From: Sulfitobacter maritimus
Lineage (GTDB): Bacteria > Pseudomonadota > Alphaproteobacteria > Rhodobacterales > Rhodobacteraceae
DNA: 64,000 bases
NCBI RefSeq assembly: GCF_013346665.1
Contig: NZ_JABVBB010000022.1
Span: 62,001 to 126,000 of the forward strand
Direction: 5' to 3'
Each line of letters starts with the position of its first letter. Position 1 is the stretch's first letter. Shown here one piece after another: positions 7,504-12,405 of the stretch. The notes beneath the pieces were generated by a model. That model did no database searches and was not told the DNA's origin. It worked only from the letters and a program-made list of their open reading frames with translations. The position numbers and the translations under genes are program-made.

Positions 7504-7806
7504 GTGGAATTTGCATCCCTTCCCACTCCGGCCAACGTCGCCAAAATCACTTCCGCACCGCGCACAGCCGACCCGGTGACGGCGGAATCGGCCAAGGAAT
7601 TTGAGGCGATGTTCCTCGGTCAGATGGTCGATGAAATGCTCTCCACCGTTGATGTCGGCAGTTTTGGCGGGGGCCATGCAGAAGAAACATGGCGCAGCTT
7701 TCTGTCCAACGCGATTGGCGAAAGCATCGCTGAGCAAAACAGCACCGGAATCGCGCGCAGCATTGAAACCGCCATGGCCCGCTATCAATCGGGAGCTGCG
7801 AAATGA
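7504..7806 (+). CDS. flgJ: Rod-binding protein (FlgJ N-terminal domain only)
   Basis: A 100-residue protein matching the N-terminal rod-capping domain of FlgJ: AKEFEAMFLGQMVDEMLSTVD and WRSFLSNAIGESIAEQNSTGIA are its characteristic helices. Enterobacterial FlgJ has an additional muramidase domain, absent here; the stand-alone transglycosylase at 24581-25414 may supply that activity. The start is GTG at 7504, with a GAGGG ribosome site just upstream. Its last four bases overlap the next gene as ATGA, which indicates translational coupling. Confidence 0.88.
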   Translation: MEFASLPTPANVAKITSAPRTADPVTAESAKEFEAMFLGQMVDEMLSTVDVGSFGGGHAEETWRSFLSNAIGESIAEQNSTGIARSIETAMARYQSGAAK

Positions 7807-8180
7807 GCGATCCGCGTAAAGCCCTCGCAACTGTCGACGCGCTCGGCAATCTGCTGCGCCGCGAGATTGCGGCAGTTGAGGGCGGCTCTTTCGATCAACT
7901 GGTCGGTTTCGCCAGCGAGAAAGCCCGAATCGCCGCCGAGCTTGAACACCAGCTTAGCGAGAACCCCGAAGCGGTAAGCAAAGACAAGTTACGCGATCTA
8001 AAAGACCTGATCGCGCGTGATCATCACCACCTGCAACTGGCCCGCCAAGCCACCGCAGAGATGATTAAAGAAGTTTCCCAAATCCGGGAAAAGCACAGCA
8101 TTGCAGGTATTTACGGCCGAAGCGGTGCTAAACGTGACAACCGCGCAACAGTGATGACAACGGTGGACAAAAGTTTCTGA
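7803..8180 (+). CDS. FlgN-like flagellar chaperone
   Basis: A 125-residue, all-helical, highly charged protein, overlapping the rod-binding protein gene by ATGA. The size, the coiled-coil-like pattern (LGNLLRREIAAVEGG, then LEHQLSENPEAVSKD) and location between flgI/flgJ and the flagellins fit FlgN, the export chaperone of FlgK and FlgL. The C-terminal tail ARQATAEMIKEVSQIRE then a GIYGRSGA segment also fits FlgN, where a Y-G motif is common. Similarity is structural rather than strong, so function is inferred. Confidence 0.7.
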   Translation: MSDPRKALATVDALGNLLRREIAAVEGGSFDQLVGFASEKARIAAELEHQLSENPEAVSKDKLRDLKDLIARDHHHLQLARQATAEMIKEVSQIREKHSIAGIYGRSGAKRDNRATVMTTVDKSF

Positions 8181-8223
8181 ATTGCCTCAATGTTGCCAGT
8201 TTTTCGCGTAAAAACGTAATCAA

Positions 8224-8287
8224 GCGGGTTCGCCCCGCAGTTGTCAGAACGACGACATAACGAACTAGAATAGTCTGGAGTAAGAGT
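8224..8287 (+). promoter_or_regulatory. Structured flagellin leader 1
   Basis: A GC hairpin (GCGGG at 8224-8228, TTCGC loop, CCCGC at 8234-8238) is followed by the box GTTGTCAGAACGACGACA at 8240-8257. Within the box TGTC and GACA can pair across 8 bases. CTAGAATAGTCTGGA then precedes the ATG. The same order recurs before flagellins 2 and 3, so this is most likely a conserved transcript leader. Confidence 0.65.
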
Positions 8288-9229
8288 ATGTCTTCGATCA
8301 ACACAAACACATCAGCGATGAATGCGTTGTCGACGCTGCGGAATGTCAATTCGAACCTAAACCAAACGCAAGACCGGATTTCGACGGGCCTTAAAGTTTC
8401 TTCGGGCAAAGACAATGCGTCTTACTTTGCCATTTCGGAGACGATGAAGGGTGATAGCGGTATGACGAAGGCTGTTAACGAAAGCCTTACGCTCACAAAA
8501 AACTCCATCGCTACCGCGCGTGTTGGCACCGAACAAGTCGGTGAACTTGCGAACCAATTTCTTGAAAAGCTCGCGTTTGCTCAAAACAACCAAGACGATT
8601 TCGATAAGGTTGCCGAAGAACTGACGAAGCTCGTCGCCGACATGAAGACCACGGTTTCTCAGTCGACCTTCAACGGCGACGACCTGGTCAACGCCGCCGA
8701 TACTGCGACAGCCAATGCCACAATCACGGACGAGGGGGTGATGACTGGTGATGTTGAGACAACCGCAACGCGTGATGTTGTCACTGGGGTGACGCGGAGC
8801 AGCGGTTTCGCAACTACCTCGATTTCATTCGACTCCGTGGATTTGACCGGACGTGTCGACGTTTTCGATAAAATCGCGACTGATTTTGCTACGAATGCTG
8901 CAGTGACGACGGATTCCACAGGTTCCCCCGGCACTACCAAGGGTGATTTGTATCTCCAAAACGTGCTGAAGCTTGCTGAAAAAGAAGTTGGCAACATTCT
9001 TACCGCGGAAACCAGCCTCGGCCTCGCAGAAAAATCCATCGAGAACCAGCAAGGCTTTTTGACCAAGCTCGCTGATAACCTTGATGCAGGTGTGGGCGCC
9101 ATGGTTGACGCAAACATGGAAGAAGAAGCCGCCCGTCTTCAGGCGCTTCAGGTTCAGCAGCAGCTGGCATCGCAGTCACTGTCGATCGCCAATCAGGCAC
9201 CGCAGAACATCCTAAGCCTGTTCCGCTAA
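8288..9229 (+). CDS. fliC: Flagellin 1
   Basis: Filament subunit of 313 residues. The N-terminus MSSINTNTSAMNALSTLRNV with QDRISTGLKVSSGKDNASYF and the C-terminus SIANQAPQNILSLFR are the conserved D0/D1 ends of flagellins. The central part is variable (TDEGVMTGDVETTATRDV, then TGRVDVFDKIATDFATNA) and differs from the two neighbours. The last 53 residues are essentially identical to the other two flagellins. It is the first of three tandem copies and its leader is the most divergent of the three. Confidence 0.96.
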   Translation: MSSINTNTSAMNALSTLRNVNSNLNQTQDRISTGLKVSSGKDNASYFAISETMKGDSGMTKAVNESLTLTKNSIATARVGTEQVGELANQFLEKLAFAQNNQDDFDKVAEELTKLVADMKTTVSQSTFNGDDLVNAADTATANATITDEGVMTGDVETTATRDVVTGVTRSSGFATTSISFDSVDLTGRVDVFDKIATDFATNAAVTTDSTGSPGTTKGDLYLQNVLKLAEKEVGNILTAETSLGLAEKSIENQQGFLTKLADNLDAGVGAMVDANMEEEAARLQALQVQQQLASQSLSIANQAPQNILSLFR

Positions 9230-9239
9230 AGTTAAATAT

Positions 9240-9349
9240 CTACTCGGTGCTGAACGGTGCCGGGTAGCAGTTAAAGTCTGCGGGGGAAAGAGCCCCGCCG
9301 TTGTCAGAAAGACGACAGATAGCACTGCTAGAATAGTACTGGATTTATT
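9240..9349 (+). promoter_or_regulatory. Structured flagellin leader 2 (repeated intergenic block)
   Basis: First an 11-base-pair stem (9240-9250 with 9257-9267, six-base loop TGAACG) that could end the upstream transcript. Then a GCGGGG/CCCCGC hairpin (9280-9285 with 9293-9298). Then the box GTTGTCAGAAAGACGACA at 9300-9317, and CTAGAATAGTACTGGAT before the start codon. The block is almost identical to the one at 10362-10470. Several stem positions differ between the copies while keeping pairing. Confidence 0.65.
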
Positions 9350-10351
9350 ATGTCTTCTATCAACACAAACACATCTGCGATGAACGCGCTGGCGACCTTG
9401 CGGAACGTCAACTCAAGCCTCAATCAAACACAGGACCGTATTTCCACTGGTCTGAAAGTCTCGTCTGGTAAAGACAACGCGTCTTATTTCGCGATTTCTG
9501 AAACCATGAAGGGCGATAGCGGTATGACCAAAGCGGTCAACGAAAGCCTCACTCTCACCAAAAATTCTGTGGCGACAGCGCGCGTCGGTGCGGAACAGTT
9601 TAGTGATCTGGCAACAGACTTCCGTGAGAAAATTGCTTTCGCTCAAAACAACCAAGACGATTTTGGTAAGATCGAGGATGAGCTTAAAAACCTCGTCTCC
9701 GAAATGAAAACCACGCTTTCCCAAGCGACGTTCAATGGCGACGATCTTATCAACGCTGGTGGTGCAGGTTACCAAGCTGCGGATCCCACTACTGACGAAG
9801 TCTATGCTGCAATGGACGACGCAGGGACCATTACATATCATGAGAAAGCAATTGGCACCGGTCGTGCTGGGACTGACGGCGCTTTCGCCGGAACTCCAAC
9901 TTACGGTAAAGAAAACGTTTCCCGCGAAGTGATTACCGGTGTGTCACGATCGTCAGGGAGCTTTTCCACGACTTCTATTAAGGTTGATGGCGCGGATCTC
10001 TACTCAGCCATGATGGAATTTGATGCGATCGCCGAGACTTTTGCCACAAATGCTGGAACTGGCGGCGCAGCATTCCTTGAGGCGGCTTTGACGACAGCTG
10101 ATAAGAACGTTGCTCATTTGGTCAGCGAAGAGACGAAGTTGGGTCTTGCTGAAAAATCGATTGAGAACCAGCAGAACTTTCTGACAAAGCTTGCGGACAA
10201 CCTCGACGCCGGTGTGGGCGCCATGGTTGACGCAAACATGGAAGAAGAAGCCGCCCGTCTTCAGGCGCTTCAGGTTCAGCAGCAGCTTGCATCGCAGTCC
10301 CTGTCAATCGCCAATCAGGCACCGCAGAACATTCTGAGCCTGTTCCGCTGA
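9350..10351 (+). CDS. fliC: Flagellin 2
   Basis: Filament subunit of 333 residues, same conserved ends as its neighbours (QDRISTGLKVSSGKDNASYF; QALQVQQQLASQSLSIANQA). The middle is longer than in flagellin 1 and holds a distinct segment AGGAGYQAADPTTDEVYAAM followed by REVITGVSRSSGSFSTTS. DNA identity is high at both ends and falls in the middle, suggesting gene conversion of the ends. Which of the three copies is dominant in the filament cannot be told from sequence. Confidence 0.96.
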   Translation: MSSINTNTSAMNALATLRNVNSSLNQTQDRISTGLKVSSGKDNASYFAISETMKGDSGMTKAVNESLTLTKNSVATARVGAEQFSDLATDFREKIAFAQNNQDDFGKIEDELKNLVSEMKTTLSQATFNGDDLINAGGAGYQAADPTTDEVYAAMDDAGTITYHEKAIGTGRAGTDGAFAGTPTYGKENVSREVITGVSRSSGSFSTTSIKVDGADLYSAMMEFDAIAETFATNAGTGGAAFLEAALTTADKNVAHLVSEETKLGLAEKSIENQQNFLTKLADNLDAGVGAMVDANMEEEAARLQALQVQQQLASQSLSIANQAPQNILSLFR

Positions 10352-10361
10352 AGTTAGATAA

Positions 10362-10470
10362 CTACTCGGCGCTGAACGGCGCCGGGTAGCAGTTGAAGCC
10401 TGCGGGGCGAGAGCTCCGCCGTTGTCAGAAAGACGACAGATAGCACTGCTAGAATAGTATTGGATATAAT
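10362..10470 (+). promoter_or_regulatory. Structured flagellin leader 3 (repeated intergenic block)
   Basis: Near-copy of the block at 9240-9349. Stem 10362-10372 with 10379-10389, loop TGAACG. Second hairpin GCGGGGC at 10402-10408, GAGA tetraloop, GCTCCGC at 10413-10419. Box GTTGTCAGAAAGACGACA at 10421-10438, 32 bases before the ATG, the same distance as in leader 2. The second hairpin has different loop bases from leaders 1 and 2 yet stays paired. Confidence 0.65.
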
Positions 10471-11466
10471 ATGTCTTCTATCAACACGAACACCTCTGCG
10501 ATGAACGCGCTGTCGACTTTGCGGAACGTCAACTCAAGCCTCAATCAGACACAGGACCGCATTTCCACGGGTCTGAAGGTCTCTTCCGGCAAAGATAACG
10601 CGTCTTATTTCGCGATTTCTGAGACCATGAAGGGCGATAGCGGCATGACCAAAGCGGTCAACGAAAGCCTTACGCTTACTAAAAACTCTATAGCTACGGC
10701 GCGCGTCGGTGCGGAGCAGTTCAGCGCGTTGGCGACTGAGTTTCGAGAAAAAGTCGCATTTGCTCAGAATAGCGAGAGCGGTTTCGACAAAATTCAGGAC
10801 GAGTTGACTAACCTCGTGGCCGAAATGGCGACCACCATCTCGCAATCTACTTTTAATGGTGACGATTTGGTCAATGCGGCAGGGACGGCTAAGAAAGACA
10901 ACGCGGCTACGCCCGCAGATGTGACGGTTGTACTGGATACTCAGACCGGCGCCCTAAGCTATTCAGGGACGGGAGTAATATCCGATGACGCTACAACATC
11001 GCGTGAAGTTGTCACCGGGGTTACGCGTTCGGGGTCCTTCAGTACAACATCCATTGATGTAAATTCGGTCAATCTTCACGATATGTACGAGAAATTCGAT
11101 GCTCTCGCGACGAATTTTGCCGCCTATGCAGTTGGGAATCATGACGCAGACGATGGCACGACTGCCGCCCTAGCGACCGGCCCAGCCTTTCTCAAAGGCG
11201 CTCTTGCGTCGGCTGACACGATCGTAGCGGATGCCGTTAATGCAACCACAAGTCTCGGCCTGGCGGAAAAATCCATCGAAAACCAGCAAGACTTCCTGAC
11301 CAAGCTCTCCGACAACCTCGACGCCGGTGTGGGCGCTATGGTTGACGCGAACATGGAAGAAGAAGCAGCCCGTCTTCAGGCGCTTCAGGTTCAACAACAG
11401 CTGGCATCGCAGTCACTGTCGATCGCCAATCAGGCACCGCAGAACATCCTGAGCCTGTTCCGTTAA
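10471..11466 (+). CDS. fliC: Flagellin 3
   Basis: Filament subunit of 331 residues, the last of the tandem trio. N- and C-terminal ends match the other two, whereas the central domain is different again (PADVTVVLDTQTGALSYSGT; VNSVNLHDMYEKFDALATNF). The stop is followed by a strong hairpin and then flaF, flbT. Having three intact copies with different surface domains suggests a mixed or alternately expressed filament, but expression is not visible here. Confidence 0.96.
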   Translation: MSSINTNTSAMNALSTLRNVNSSLNQTQDRISTGLKVSSGKDNASYFAISETMKGDSGMTKAVNESLTLTKNSIATARVGAEQFSALATEFREKVAFAQNSESGFDKIQDELTNLVAEMATTISQSTFNGDDLVNAAGTAKKDNAATPADVTVVLDTQTGALSYSGTGVISDDATTSREVVTGVTRSGSFSTTSIDVNSVNLHDMYEKFDALATNFAAYAVGNHDADDGTTAALATGPAFLKGALASADTIVADAVNATTSLGLAEKSIENQQDFLTKLSDNLDAGVGAMVDANMEEEAARLQALQVQQQLASQSLSIANQAPQNILSLFR

Positions 11467-11573: not shown

Positions 11574-11978
11574 ATGGGGCTGGCAGCATACAAACGAACA
11601 ATCCGCGAAAGCGAAACCCCGCGGCAGATCGAGCGCCGCATCCTGAGCCGTGTCACACATGACCTTGCCGAAAAGGGCCAAGGCTTTGATGCGACAGACG
11701 ATAAGAGCGAGCGGTTGAACATCCTCGCCTCCGGGCTGCGCGACGCGATCTACGAAAATCAACGGTTCTGGTCGGCCCTGCGCTTTGACCTGTCCGAGCC
11801 GGAAAACAAGATGCCCGATGGGCTGAAAGCGTCGCTGATCTCCATCGCGCTTTGGGTGGACCGTCACAGCACCGCGCTGATGGCAGGTGAGGGGCGTCTG
11901 GCGGGTCTCGTTGAGATCAATGGCAACATTGCCGCAGGTTTGGCCGGGCAGACGGCACCACAGATGCAGGAGGTGTAA
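11574..11978 (+). CDS. flaF: Flagellar biosynthesis regulator FlaF
   Basis: FlaF is a small alphaproteobacterial activator of flagellin synthesis that acts opposite to FlbT; 134 residues here. The sequence MGLAAYKRTIRESETPRQIE, NILASGLRDAIYENQRFWSALRFDLS-type centre and LISIALWVDRHS are typical of the family. It has an upstream AAGGAAGAATTCCT leader. flbT starts 1 base after its stop, the usual flaF-flbT pair. Its presence immediately after the flagellins with conserved leaders makes a leader-based control likely. Confidence 0.92.
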   Translation: MGLAAYKRTIRESETPRQIERRILSRVTHDLAEKGQGFDATDDKSERLNILASGLRDAIYENQRFWSALRFDLSEPENKMPDGLKASLISIALWVDRHSTALMAGEGRLAGLVEINGNIAAGLAGQTAPQMQEV

Positions 11979-11979
11979 G

Positions 11980-12405
11980 ATGCTGAAACTTACCCTCCGC
12001 CCCCGTGAACGTGTGGTCGTGAACGGCTGCGTCATCCGCAACGGCGACCGCCGCCAAGCGCTGACGGTCGAGAACCGCGCCGACATCGTGCGCGAATCCG
12101 ATCTGCTGAAGCCGGACGCTGAATCTACGCCTGTCTCCAAGGTCTATTTCTTGGTGCAAACGGCGCTGATCCGCCCCGATACACGCGATCAAATCCTGCC
12201 GATGATCCAGCAGGGCTTGGCCGATCTGGCTTGTTGCTTTGGCGCAGATATGCGCGCACGGATCATGGAAGCGGCGAATTTCGTCTCCATGTCGGATTTC
12301 TACAAAGCGATGAGCGAACTGCGCGCGGTGCTCAAATACGAGACCGAACTGATGCAACTGCGTCCGGTTCCGCCCGCCGCGGGGCAAGAGGCCGCGCACG
12401 CATGA
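11980..12405 (+). CDS. flbT: Flagellin mRNA regulator FlbT
   Basis: FlbT binds flagellin transcript leaders in Caulobacter and controls their stability; 141 residues here. I set the start at the ATG at 11980 (MLKLTLRPRERVVVNGCVIRNG), directly after an AGGAGGTGTAAG ribosome site. A longer upstream frame exists but runs through flaF. The hallmark VENRADIVRESDLL and FLVQTALIRPDTRD segments are visible. It overlaps the DUF1217 gene by ATGA. Its probable target is the repeated flagellin leader described above. Confidence 0.94.
   Translation: MLKLTLRPRERVVVNGCVIRNGDRRQALTVENRADIVRESDLLKPDAESTPVSKVYFLVQTALIRPDTRDQILPMIQQGLADLACCFGADMRARIMEAANFVSMSDFYKAMSELRAVLKYETELMQLRPVPPAAGQEAAHA

Follow-up and report, generated by a model that had tools for sequence, protein, structure and literature searches.

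The window analysed here, a stretch of 64,000 nucleotides from Sulfitobacter maritimus, contains three tandem flagellin genes followed by flaF and flbT, as identified with Pfam. A leader with three hairpins (SL1, SL2 and SL3) precedes each flagellin gene. The features of the array, all on the forward (+) strand, are as follows.

8224..8238, +: SL1 of leader 1, GCGGG[UUCGC]CCCGC, from the predicted fold; an AGAA-loop hairpin lies at the same place in Palleronia (L008)
8240..8256, +: SL2 of leader 1, GUUGUC[AGAAC]GACGAC, the box of an earlier reading; from box search, fold and covariation
8264..8274, +: SL3 of leader 1, ACU[AGAAU]AGU, adjoining the Shine-Dalgarno sequence; absent from the minimum-energy fold
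8275-8280, +: Shine-Dalgarno sequence of flagellin 1, CTGGAG, directly after SL3
8288..9229, +: flagellin 1 (PF00669/PF00700)
9240..9267, +: 12-bp hairpin 3′ of the flagellin 1 stop codon, without a T run; from sequence and fold
9280..9298, +: SL1 of leader 2, GCGGGG[GAAAGAG]CCCCGC, from the predicted fold
9300..9316, +: SL2 of leader 2, GUUGUC[AGAAA]GACGAC, from box search and fold
9326..9338, +: SL3 of leader 2, UGCU[AGAAU]AGUA, immediately 5′ of CTGGA; from comparison with relatives
9350..10351, +: flagellin 2 (Pfam)
10362..10389, +: 12-bp hairpin 3′ of the flagellin 2 stop codon, without a T run; from sequence and fold
10402..10419, +: SL1 of leader 3, GCGGGGC[GAGA]GCUCCGC, from the predicted fold
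10421..10437, +: SL2 of leader 3, GUUGUC[AGAAA]GACGAC, from box search and fold
10447..10459, +: SL3 of leader 3, UGCU[AGAAU]AGUA, from relatives; absent from the minimum-energy fold
10471..11466, +: flagellin 3 (Pfam)
11574..11978, +: flaF (PF07309, E 3.5e-25)
11980..12405, +: flbT, the likely trans-acting partner (PF07378, E 5.8e-33; AlphaFold models)

A sequence-only reading of this DNA had described, before each of the three flagellins, a GC hairpin, a TGTC/GACA box, then CTAGAATAGT and a start codon 30-32 bases after the box, with FlbT encoded just downstream. All of this is as described: the box, GTTGTCAGAA[C/A]GACGACA, lies at 8240-8257, 9300-9317 and 10421-10438 and is followed by CTAGAATAGT, the ATG codons at 8288, 9350 and 10471 are 30-32 bases 3′ of it, and the PF07378 gene at 11980-12405 is preceded by flaF. 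The box is itself the second hairpin, with a GUUGUC/GACGAC stem and an AGAAN loop. CTAGAATAGT corresponds to the third, weaker hairpin, ACU[AGAAU]AGU or UGCU[AGAAU]AGUA, which abuts the Shine-Dalgarno sequence, and SL1 is the GC hairpin, whose loop differs in each leader. Each leader's predicted fold contains SL1 and SL2, while the pairing of SL3 is too weak for certainty from folding energy. Compared with shuffled sequences, the leaders show a modest gain in folding only (z −2.8, −2.3 and −2.2), and z is −0.9 when leader 1 is extended by 40 upstream bases. Allowing up to three mismatches, the box has three matches in the window, a number that none of 100 shuffles reached, and allowing up to two mismatches there are three copies in the whole genome, each before a flagellin, with none on the other strand and none for a reversed control pattern.

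Beside these leaders, the strong hairpins at 9240-9267 and 10362-10389 could take part in mRNA processing or 3′-end protection between the tandem flagellins. A small open reading frame before the first flagellin (7803-8180) has a FliT match under the Pfam cut-off (E 3.6e-4); a flgN-like gene is reported to adjoin fliC in Phaeobacter.

The same leader design was found in 59 named loci, mostly from Rhodobacterales. In the 30 near-type leaders, which resemble those of the window, SL2 is located at −47 to −35, and 28 of them have a second AGAA at −27 to −13; Palleronia (L008) has three tandem AGAA hairpins, the first of them where the window has SL1. The far, or fla1, type is represented by 57 leaders with a single AGAA at −92 to −68, within a four-hairpin leader. 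The window's genome carries both a near-type and a fla1-type flagellin system, each with its own flbT.

We scanned the leaders with each of the 256 possible 4-mers as the loop of a stem of at least 4 base pairs. Flagellin calls shorter than 100 amino acids, with an E-value above 1e-8 or with less than 110 nt upstream were dropped, and near-duplicates were removed (242 to 208 leaders); the window's third leader was among those lost to filtering, and two further leaders, which belong to a second flagellar system, were kept out of the scan. The scan sets consist of 100 Rhodobacterales-set leaders, 75 (52 loci) of other genomes in the class that have flbT, and 31 (30 loci) of genomes that lack it; the named and unnamed locus sets overlap in part, and the last scan set takes the best flagellin match of each of 30 FlbT-less genomes rather than all flagellins. 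The Rhodobacterales set takes in every named locus as well as the order loci, some of them filed under other names (L032, L039), and includes seven anchor-less leaders of Rhizobium, Mesorhizobium, Caldovatus and Acidiphilium (three at L036, two at L037, and L059 and L060).

AGAA ranks first of 256 in the Rhodobacterales set (61 of 100 leaders; mean over 4-mers 1.5) and in the other FlbT-bearing alphaproteobacterial genomes (22 of 75; mean 1.0), and third in the FlbT-less leaders (4 of 31, where the top 4-mer has 5). The runner-up in each of the two FlbT sets is AAAA (27 and 17 leaders), so the loop could more generally be A[AG]AA. An AGAA hairpin occurs in 2.3% of random windows of the same loci for the Rhodobacterales set and in 1.7% for the other FlbT-bearing genomes, and on the reverse complement of the leaders it occurs in 0 of 100, 1 of 75 and 1 of 31 for the Rhodobacterales, other FlbT-bearing and FlbT-less sets. 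When AGAA falls within −48 to −34, it is enclosed by a stem of at least 4 base pairs in 31 of 31 cases in the Rhodobacterales set, 19 of 23 in the G385 family and 8 of 15 in the other FlbT-bearing genomes, and other 4-mers in this zone have such a stem in 3-5% of cases. None of the 31 FlbT-less leaders has AGAA in this zone; six of them do have it at some point before the Shine-Dalgarno sequence. A form that overlaps the Shine-Dalgarno sequence, YC/CT-AGAA(N)-GG, is found in 24 of the 75 FlbT-bearing versus 1 of the 31 FlbT-less class leaders, and in 0 of 100 in the Rhodobacterales set, where SL3 merely abuts the Shine-Dalgarno sequence. In the G385 family (40 leaders, 30 loci, with G385 itself the only member tested for flbT), 21 leaders have an AGAA hairpin upstream of −27, 13 have a Shine-Dalgarno hairpin, and 11 have both.

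The sequence-only reading had also stated that pairing is kept though the hairpins differ. Within the window this is near trivial, as the three box stems are identical and the GC hairpin varies mainly in loop and length. Because the box stem is the same in all three copies, covariation has to be looked for in relatives, and there pairing is indeed kept with compensation. Alignment A3 is 95% paired, and 4 of its 6 pairs are changed on both sides; in alignment A8, 16 of 20 pairs are changed on both sides, which none of 500 shuffles equalled, although RNAalifold recovered only the last hairpin of A8, and the other helices were picked by eye and then counted, so that the count favours them. By alignment counts, compensatory stem changes exceed those in shuffles and in slid controls. 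With the mixed alignment A2, RNAalifold gave no pairs, which we attribute to 4-nt and 5-nt loops being misaligned by one base. The fla1-type AGAA hairpin is a short one whose sequence is for the most part conserved; double-sided changes are seen in 1 of its 4 pairs, and 9 of 57 fla1-type AGAA anchors do not have 3 base pairs. We also pooled 58 AGAA hairpins at the position of the window's SL2 from three sources, chosen for a stem of at least 4; among these, 41 distinct 5′ arms occur, and 54 of the 58 are closed by a C-G pair. (The class set used for this pool is without six leaders of L184, L208, L246 and L247, because their family was sampled anew.)

The position of the hairpins within the transcript can be estimated in some relatives from predicted promoters. 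A sigma54-like site (TGGCN7TTGY) is present in 31 of the 75 FlbT-bearing class leaders and in none of the 100 Rhodobacterales-set leaders. As a rule of thumb, transcription starts 11 nt after such a site. The first A[AG]AA hairpin begins within 3 nt of this predicted start in 7 of the 31 leaders; ten others have an AGAA hairpin, and the predicted start is upstream of one in 8 of these, while two leaders of L207 have their sole AGAA hairpin upstream of the predicted start. Of the 14 FlbT-less leaders that carry such a site, one (L235) has an AAAA hairpin no more than 3 nt from the start so predicted. The near-type leaders contain CtrA-like boxes (TTAA-N6-8-TTAA) in 10 of 30 cases (L014, L016, L017, L018, L022, L025, L026, L029, L030 and L074), where 0.5 would be expected from shuffles, compared with 3 of 57 far-type leaders. 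These boxes are upstream of SL2, and the window's two leaders in that set do not have one. None of the 87 near- and far-type leaders shows a sigma28-like pattern.

The possibility that TGTC-N8-GACA is instead a DNA operator of a transcription factor, with the hairpins incidental, gains something from the box being an inverted repeat in DNA as well, and from the report that the fliC transcript of Phaeobacter is 64-fold lower in CtrA-phosphorelay mutants. However, the arms of the hairpin change freely with compensation, and it is the asymmetric AGAA loop alone that is kept, on the coding strand only; such one-strand conservation with changing stems indicates RNA rather than duplex DNA. The distance to the ATG is moreover kept for the second and third genes of the array, and of the near-type CtrA-like boxes, nine end no closer to the gene than −78, while that of L017 ends at −57. 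We thus consider a DNA operator very unlikely. An attenuator or terminator between the tandem flagellin genes seems more improbable still: there are strong GC hairpins between the genes, but neither the hairpins of the three leaders nor the two hairpins after the stop codons are followed by a T run, and the same element also precedes first genes. In contrast, the strand-specific loop, the compensatory stem changes, the place before flagellin starts and the sigma54-predicted starts in some relatives strongly support the interpretation of the box and hairpins as an RNA element of the mRNA leader at flagellin genes.

A covariance-model search of Rhodobacterales, which the sequence-only reading had proposed, was conducted on 292 genomes with two models, R1 (17 leaders, one helix) and R2 (38 fla1-type leaders, four helices); the sequences used for building the models lie among the searched genomes, so recall is partly by construction. 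R1 finds 18 sites in 12 genomes, all before flagellins and all in genomes with flbT (12 of 12): a flagellin start is directly behind 17 loci, and the remaining one, L063, is by its coordinates the window's third leader. R2 matches 218 of the 292 genomes. For 29 of the best 30 R2 loci a flagellin start lies behind the match, one of these (L252, in G176) being a 46-codon stub only; the exception, L265 (G123), is in a genome without flbT. No Rfam family matches the window or 14 relative loci at gathering score. Overall, the leader is a real and widespread RNA element at alphaproteobacterial flagellin genes without an Rfam match.

The earlier proposal that the element may be an FlbT/FlaF-responsive RNA target is partly supported: the RNA leader element is borne out, and its co-occurrence with flbT is partial. 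In the class sample, the motif is found in 34 of 75 leaders from FlbT-bearing genomes versus 3 of 31 from FlbT-less genomes (Fisher p 0.0003, which is not corrected for phylogeny, and the FlbT-less leaders belong to other flagellin lineages), and is thus missing, as defined, in 41 of the 75. In the order sample, 196 of 243 flbT-bearing genomes have an R1 or R2 match, versus 27 of 49 flbT-less genomes; 47 of the 243 have neither, and the 27 flbT-less genomes retain an R2 match. We inspected the leader locus in 14 of these 27, and in 13 there is no intact flagellin behind the leader. In seven of the 13, the first 46-54 fliC codons remain and run into the end of flgE on the other strand; in five, the end of the leader is joined to the antisense of the motB start; and L293 has neither junction. 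No flaF match or longer flagellin match was found elsewhere in these 13 genomes. The simplest reading is that the orphan leaders are relics that remained after loss of the flagellin, flaF and flbT, though their scores of up to 91 bits are surprising for relics. The two types of junction recur across several genera among fla1-type clusters (L281-L283, L285-L292 and L294), an observation that points to recurrent loss or rearrangement. The fourteenth genome, G038, is a plain exception: it has six intact flagellins of 282 amino acids (L331-L334), five of them preceded by a 3-4 bp hairpin of the type GTC[AGAAT]GRC at −71 to −84, and searches of the genome and of the surroundings of its flagellins found no flbT and no flaF. 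Unless the assembly misses flbT and flaF, this counts against FlbT as the sole reader of the element, and it slightly lowered our estimate for an FlbT operator and slightly raised that for another reader.

With these exceptions taken into account, we lean towards the view that the AGAA-hairpin leader is a translational operator that FlbT would bind, thereby repressing flagellin production. This link to FlbT draws on the leader binding published for Caulobacter, the class sample and the gene neighbourhood. According to such a model, the 5′ leader of the flagellin mRNA would fold into consecutive hairpins with AGAA(N) loops, and these loops would be bound by FlbT, probably aided by a co-repressor of the flagellin type such as has been reported in Caulobacter; FlaF may have a part as well. 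The upstream hairpin would be the strong FlbT site, and the last hairpin would abut or contain the Shine-Dalgarno sequence. Once bound, FlbT would keep ribosomes from entering, with mRNA decay as a possible further effect, until export of the co-repressor.

Hairpins at the 5′ end of a transcript are also a usual means of mRNA protection. The hairpins could be read by something other than FlbT, such as an RNase, the ribosome or another RNA-binding protein, or could mainly stabilise a very abundant mRNA. The 27 of 49 flbT-less genomes of the order that keep the leader, G038 with its intact flagellins among them, favour this alternative. On the other hand, plain stabilisers need neither one particular loop out of 256 nor a copy at the Shine-Dalgarno sequence, and only 3 of the 31 FlbT-less class leaders carry the motif. 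We regard this alternative as rather unlikely, though one to be taken seriously.

In the AlphaFold model of FlbT (mean pLDDT 85.6), five short strands form the N-terminal domain and four helices form a bundle; modelled alone, the N-terminal part (pLDDT 83.8) again gives five short strands, then a helix. By eye, it resembles CsrA in the order of its strands and in its first 15 residues. However, kinship with CsrA found no support in profile comparison or fold search: hhalign gave a probability of 0.4% (E 0.15) against a CsrA alignment that had little diversity, the 17 Pfam families listed at E 10 for 43 FlbT proteins do not include CsrA, and no CsrA chain is among the Foldseek or VIA-align matches listed for the FlbT model. 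Such gaps in the lists do not prove that the two proteins are unrelated. The best structural neighbours of the helical bundle are FliS-flagellin complexes, within the chance range for helical bundles, and a sequence search found no solved FlbT relative. It is a doubtful idea that FlbT might combine a CsrA-like beta domain, reading AGAA loops, with a FliS-like flagellin-binding bundle, sensing unexported flagellin, and that its RNA code, conserved throughout the class, might be a tandem array of C[AGAA(N)]G hairpins that finishes with one at the Shine-Dalgarno sequence. If true, FlbT would be an alphaproteobacterial counterpart of the CsrA-FliW-FliS circuit.

The flg-Rhizobiales motif is likewise located upstream of flagellin genes. 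This alphaproteobacterial candidate RNA (Rfam RF01736; PMC2864571) does not match the window or the 14 relative loci at gathering score, and does not appear among the matches to 7800-10700 when E-values of up to 10 are allowed; the Rhizobiales loci L036 and L037 have neither an AGAA hairpin nor an Rfam match at E 1. FlbT itself has been described as a post-transcriptional regulator of flagellin since at least 2000, and passages of reviews state that it binds Caulobacter flagellin mRNA leaders, the fljK leader of Caulobacter crescentus being FlbT-regulated (Anderson and Gober 2000, cited in PMC3930126 and PMC4347634). The window shares with the fljK system an FlbT-bearing alphaproteobacterium and a flagellin 5′ leader as target, a proposed one in the window, whereas it is from genomes other than Caulobacter that the AGAA element is characterised here, both in its loop and in its range. 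In the available passage of a review table (PMC4347634), which does not include the column header, the mechanism of FlbT is given as unresolved, and the third column, which for Hfq holds a recognition sequence, has only a slash. FlbT and FlaF have been called possibly analogous to the CsrA-FliW-flagellin loop of Bacillus and Campylobacter (PMC4894983). That loop has an RNA-binding repressor of flagellin mRNA, the role proposed here for FlbT, but the RNA loop is AGAA here and GGA for CsrA, and the tools used showed no CsrA-FlbT kinship. Listings of open-licence literature on FlbT with flagellin, CsrA, FljJ and fljK, and on structured RNAs, contain no description of this element. The R1 and R2 covariance models are a means to seek such leaders in other alphaproteobacteria, and with a defined loop-and-stem code before the flagellin genes of many families, the question of whether FlbT reads it becomes simply testable by binding or reporter assays.
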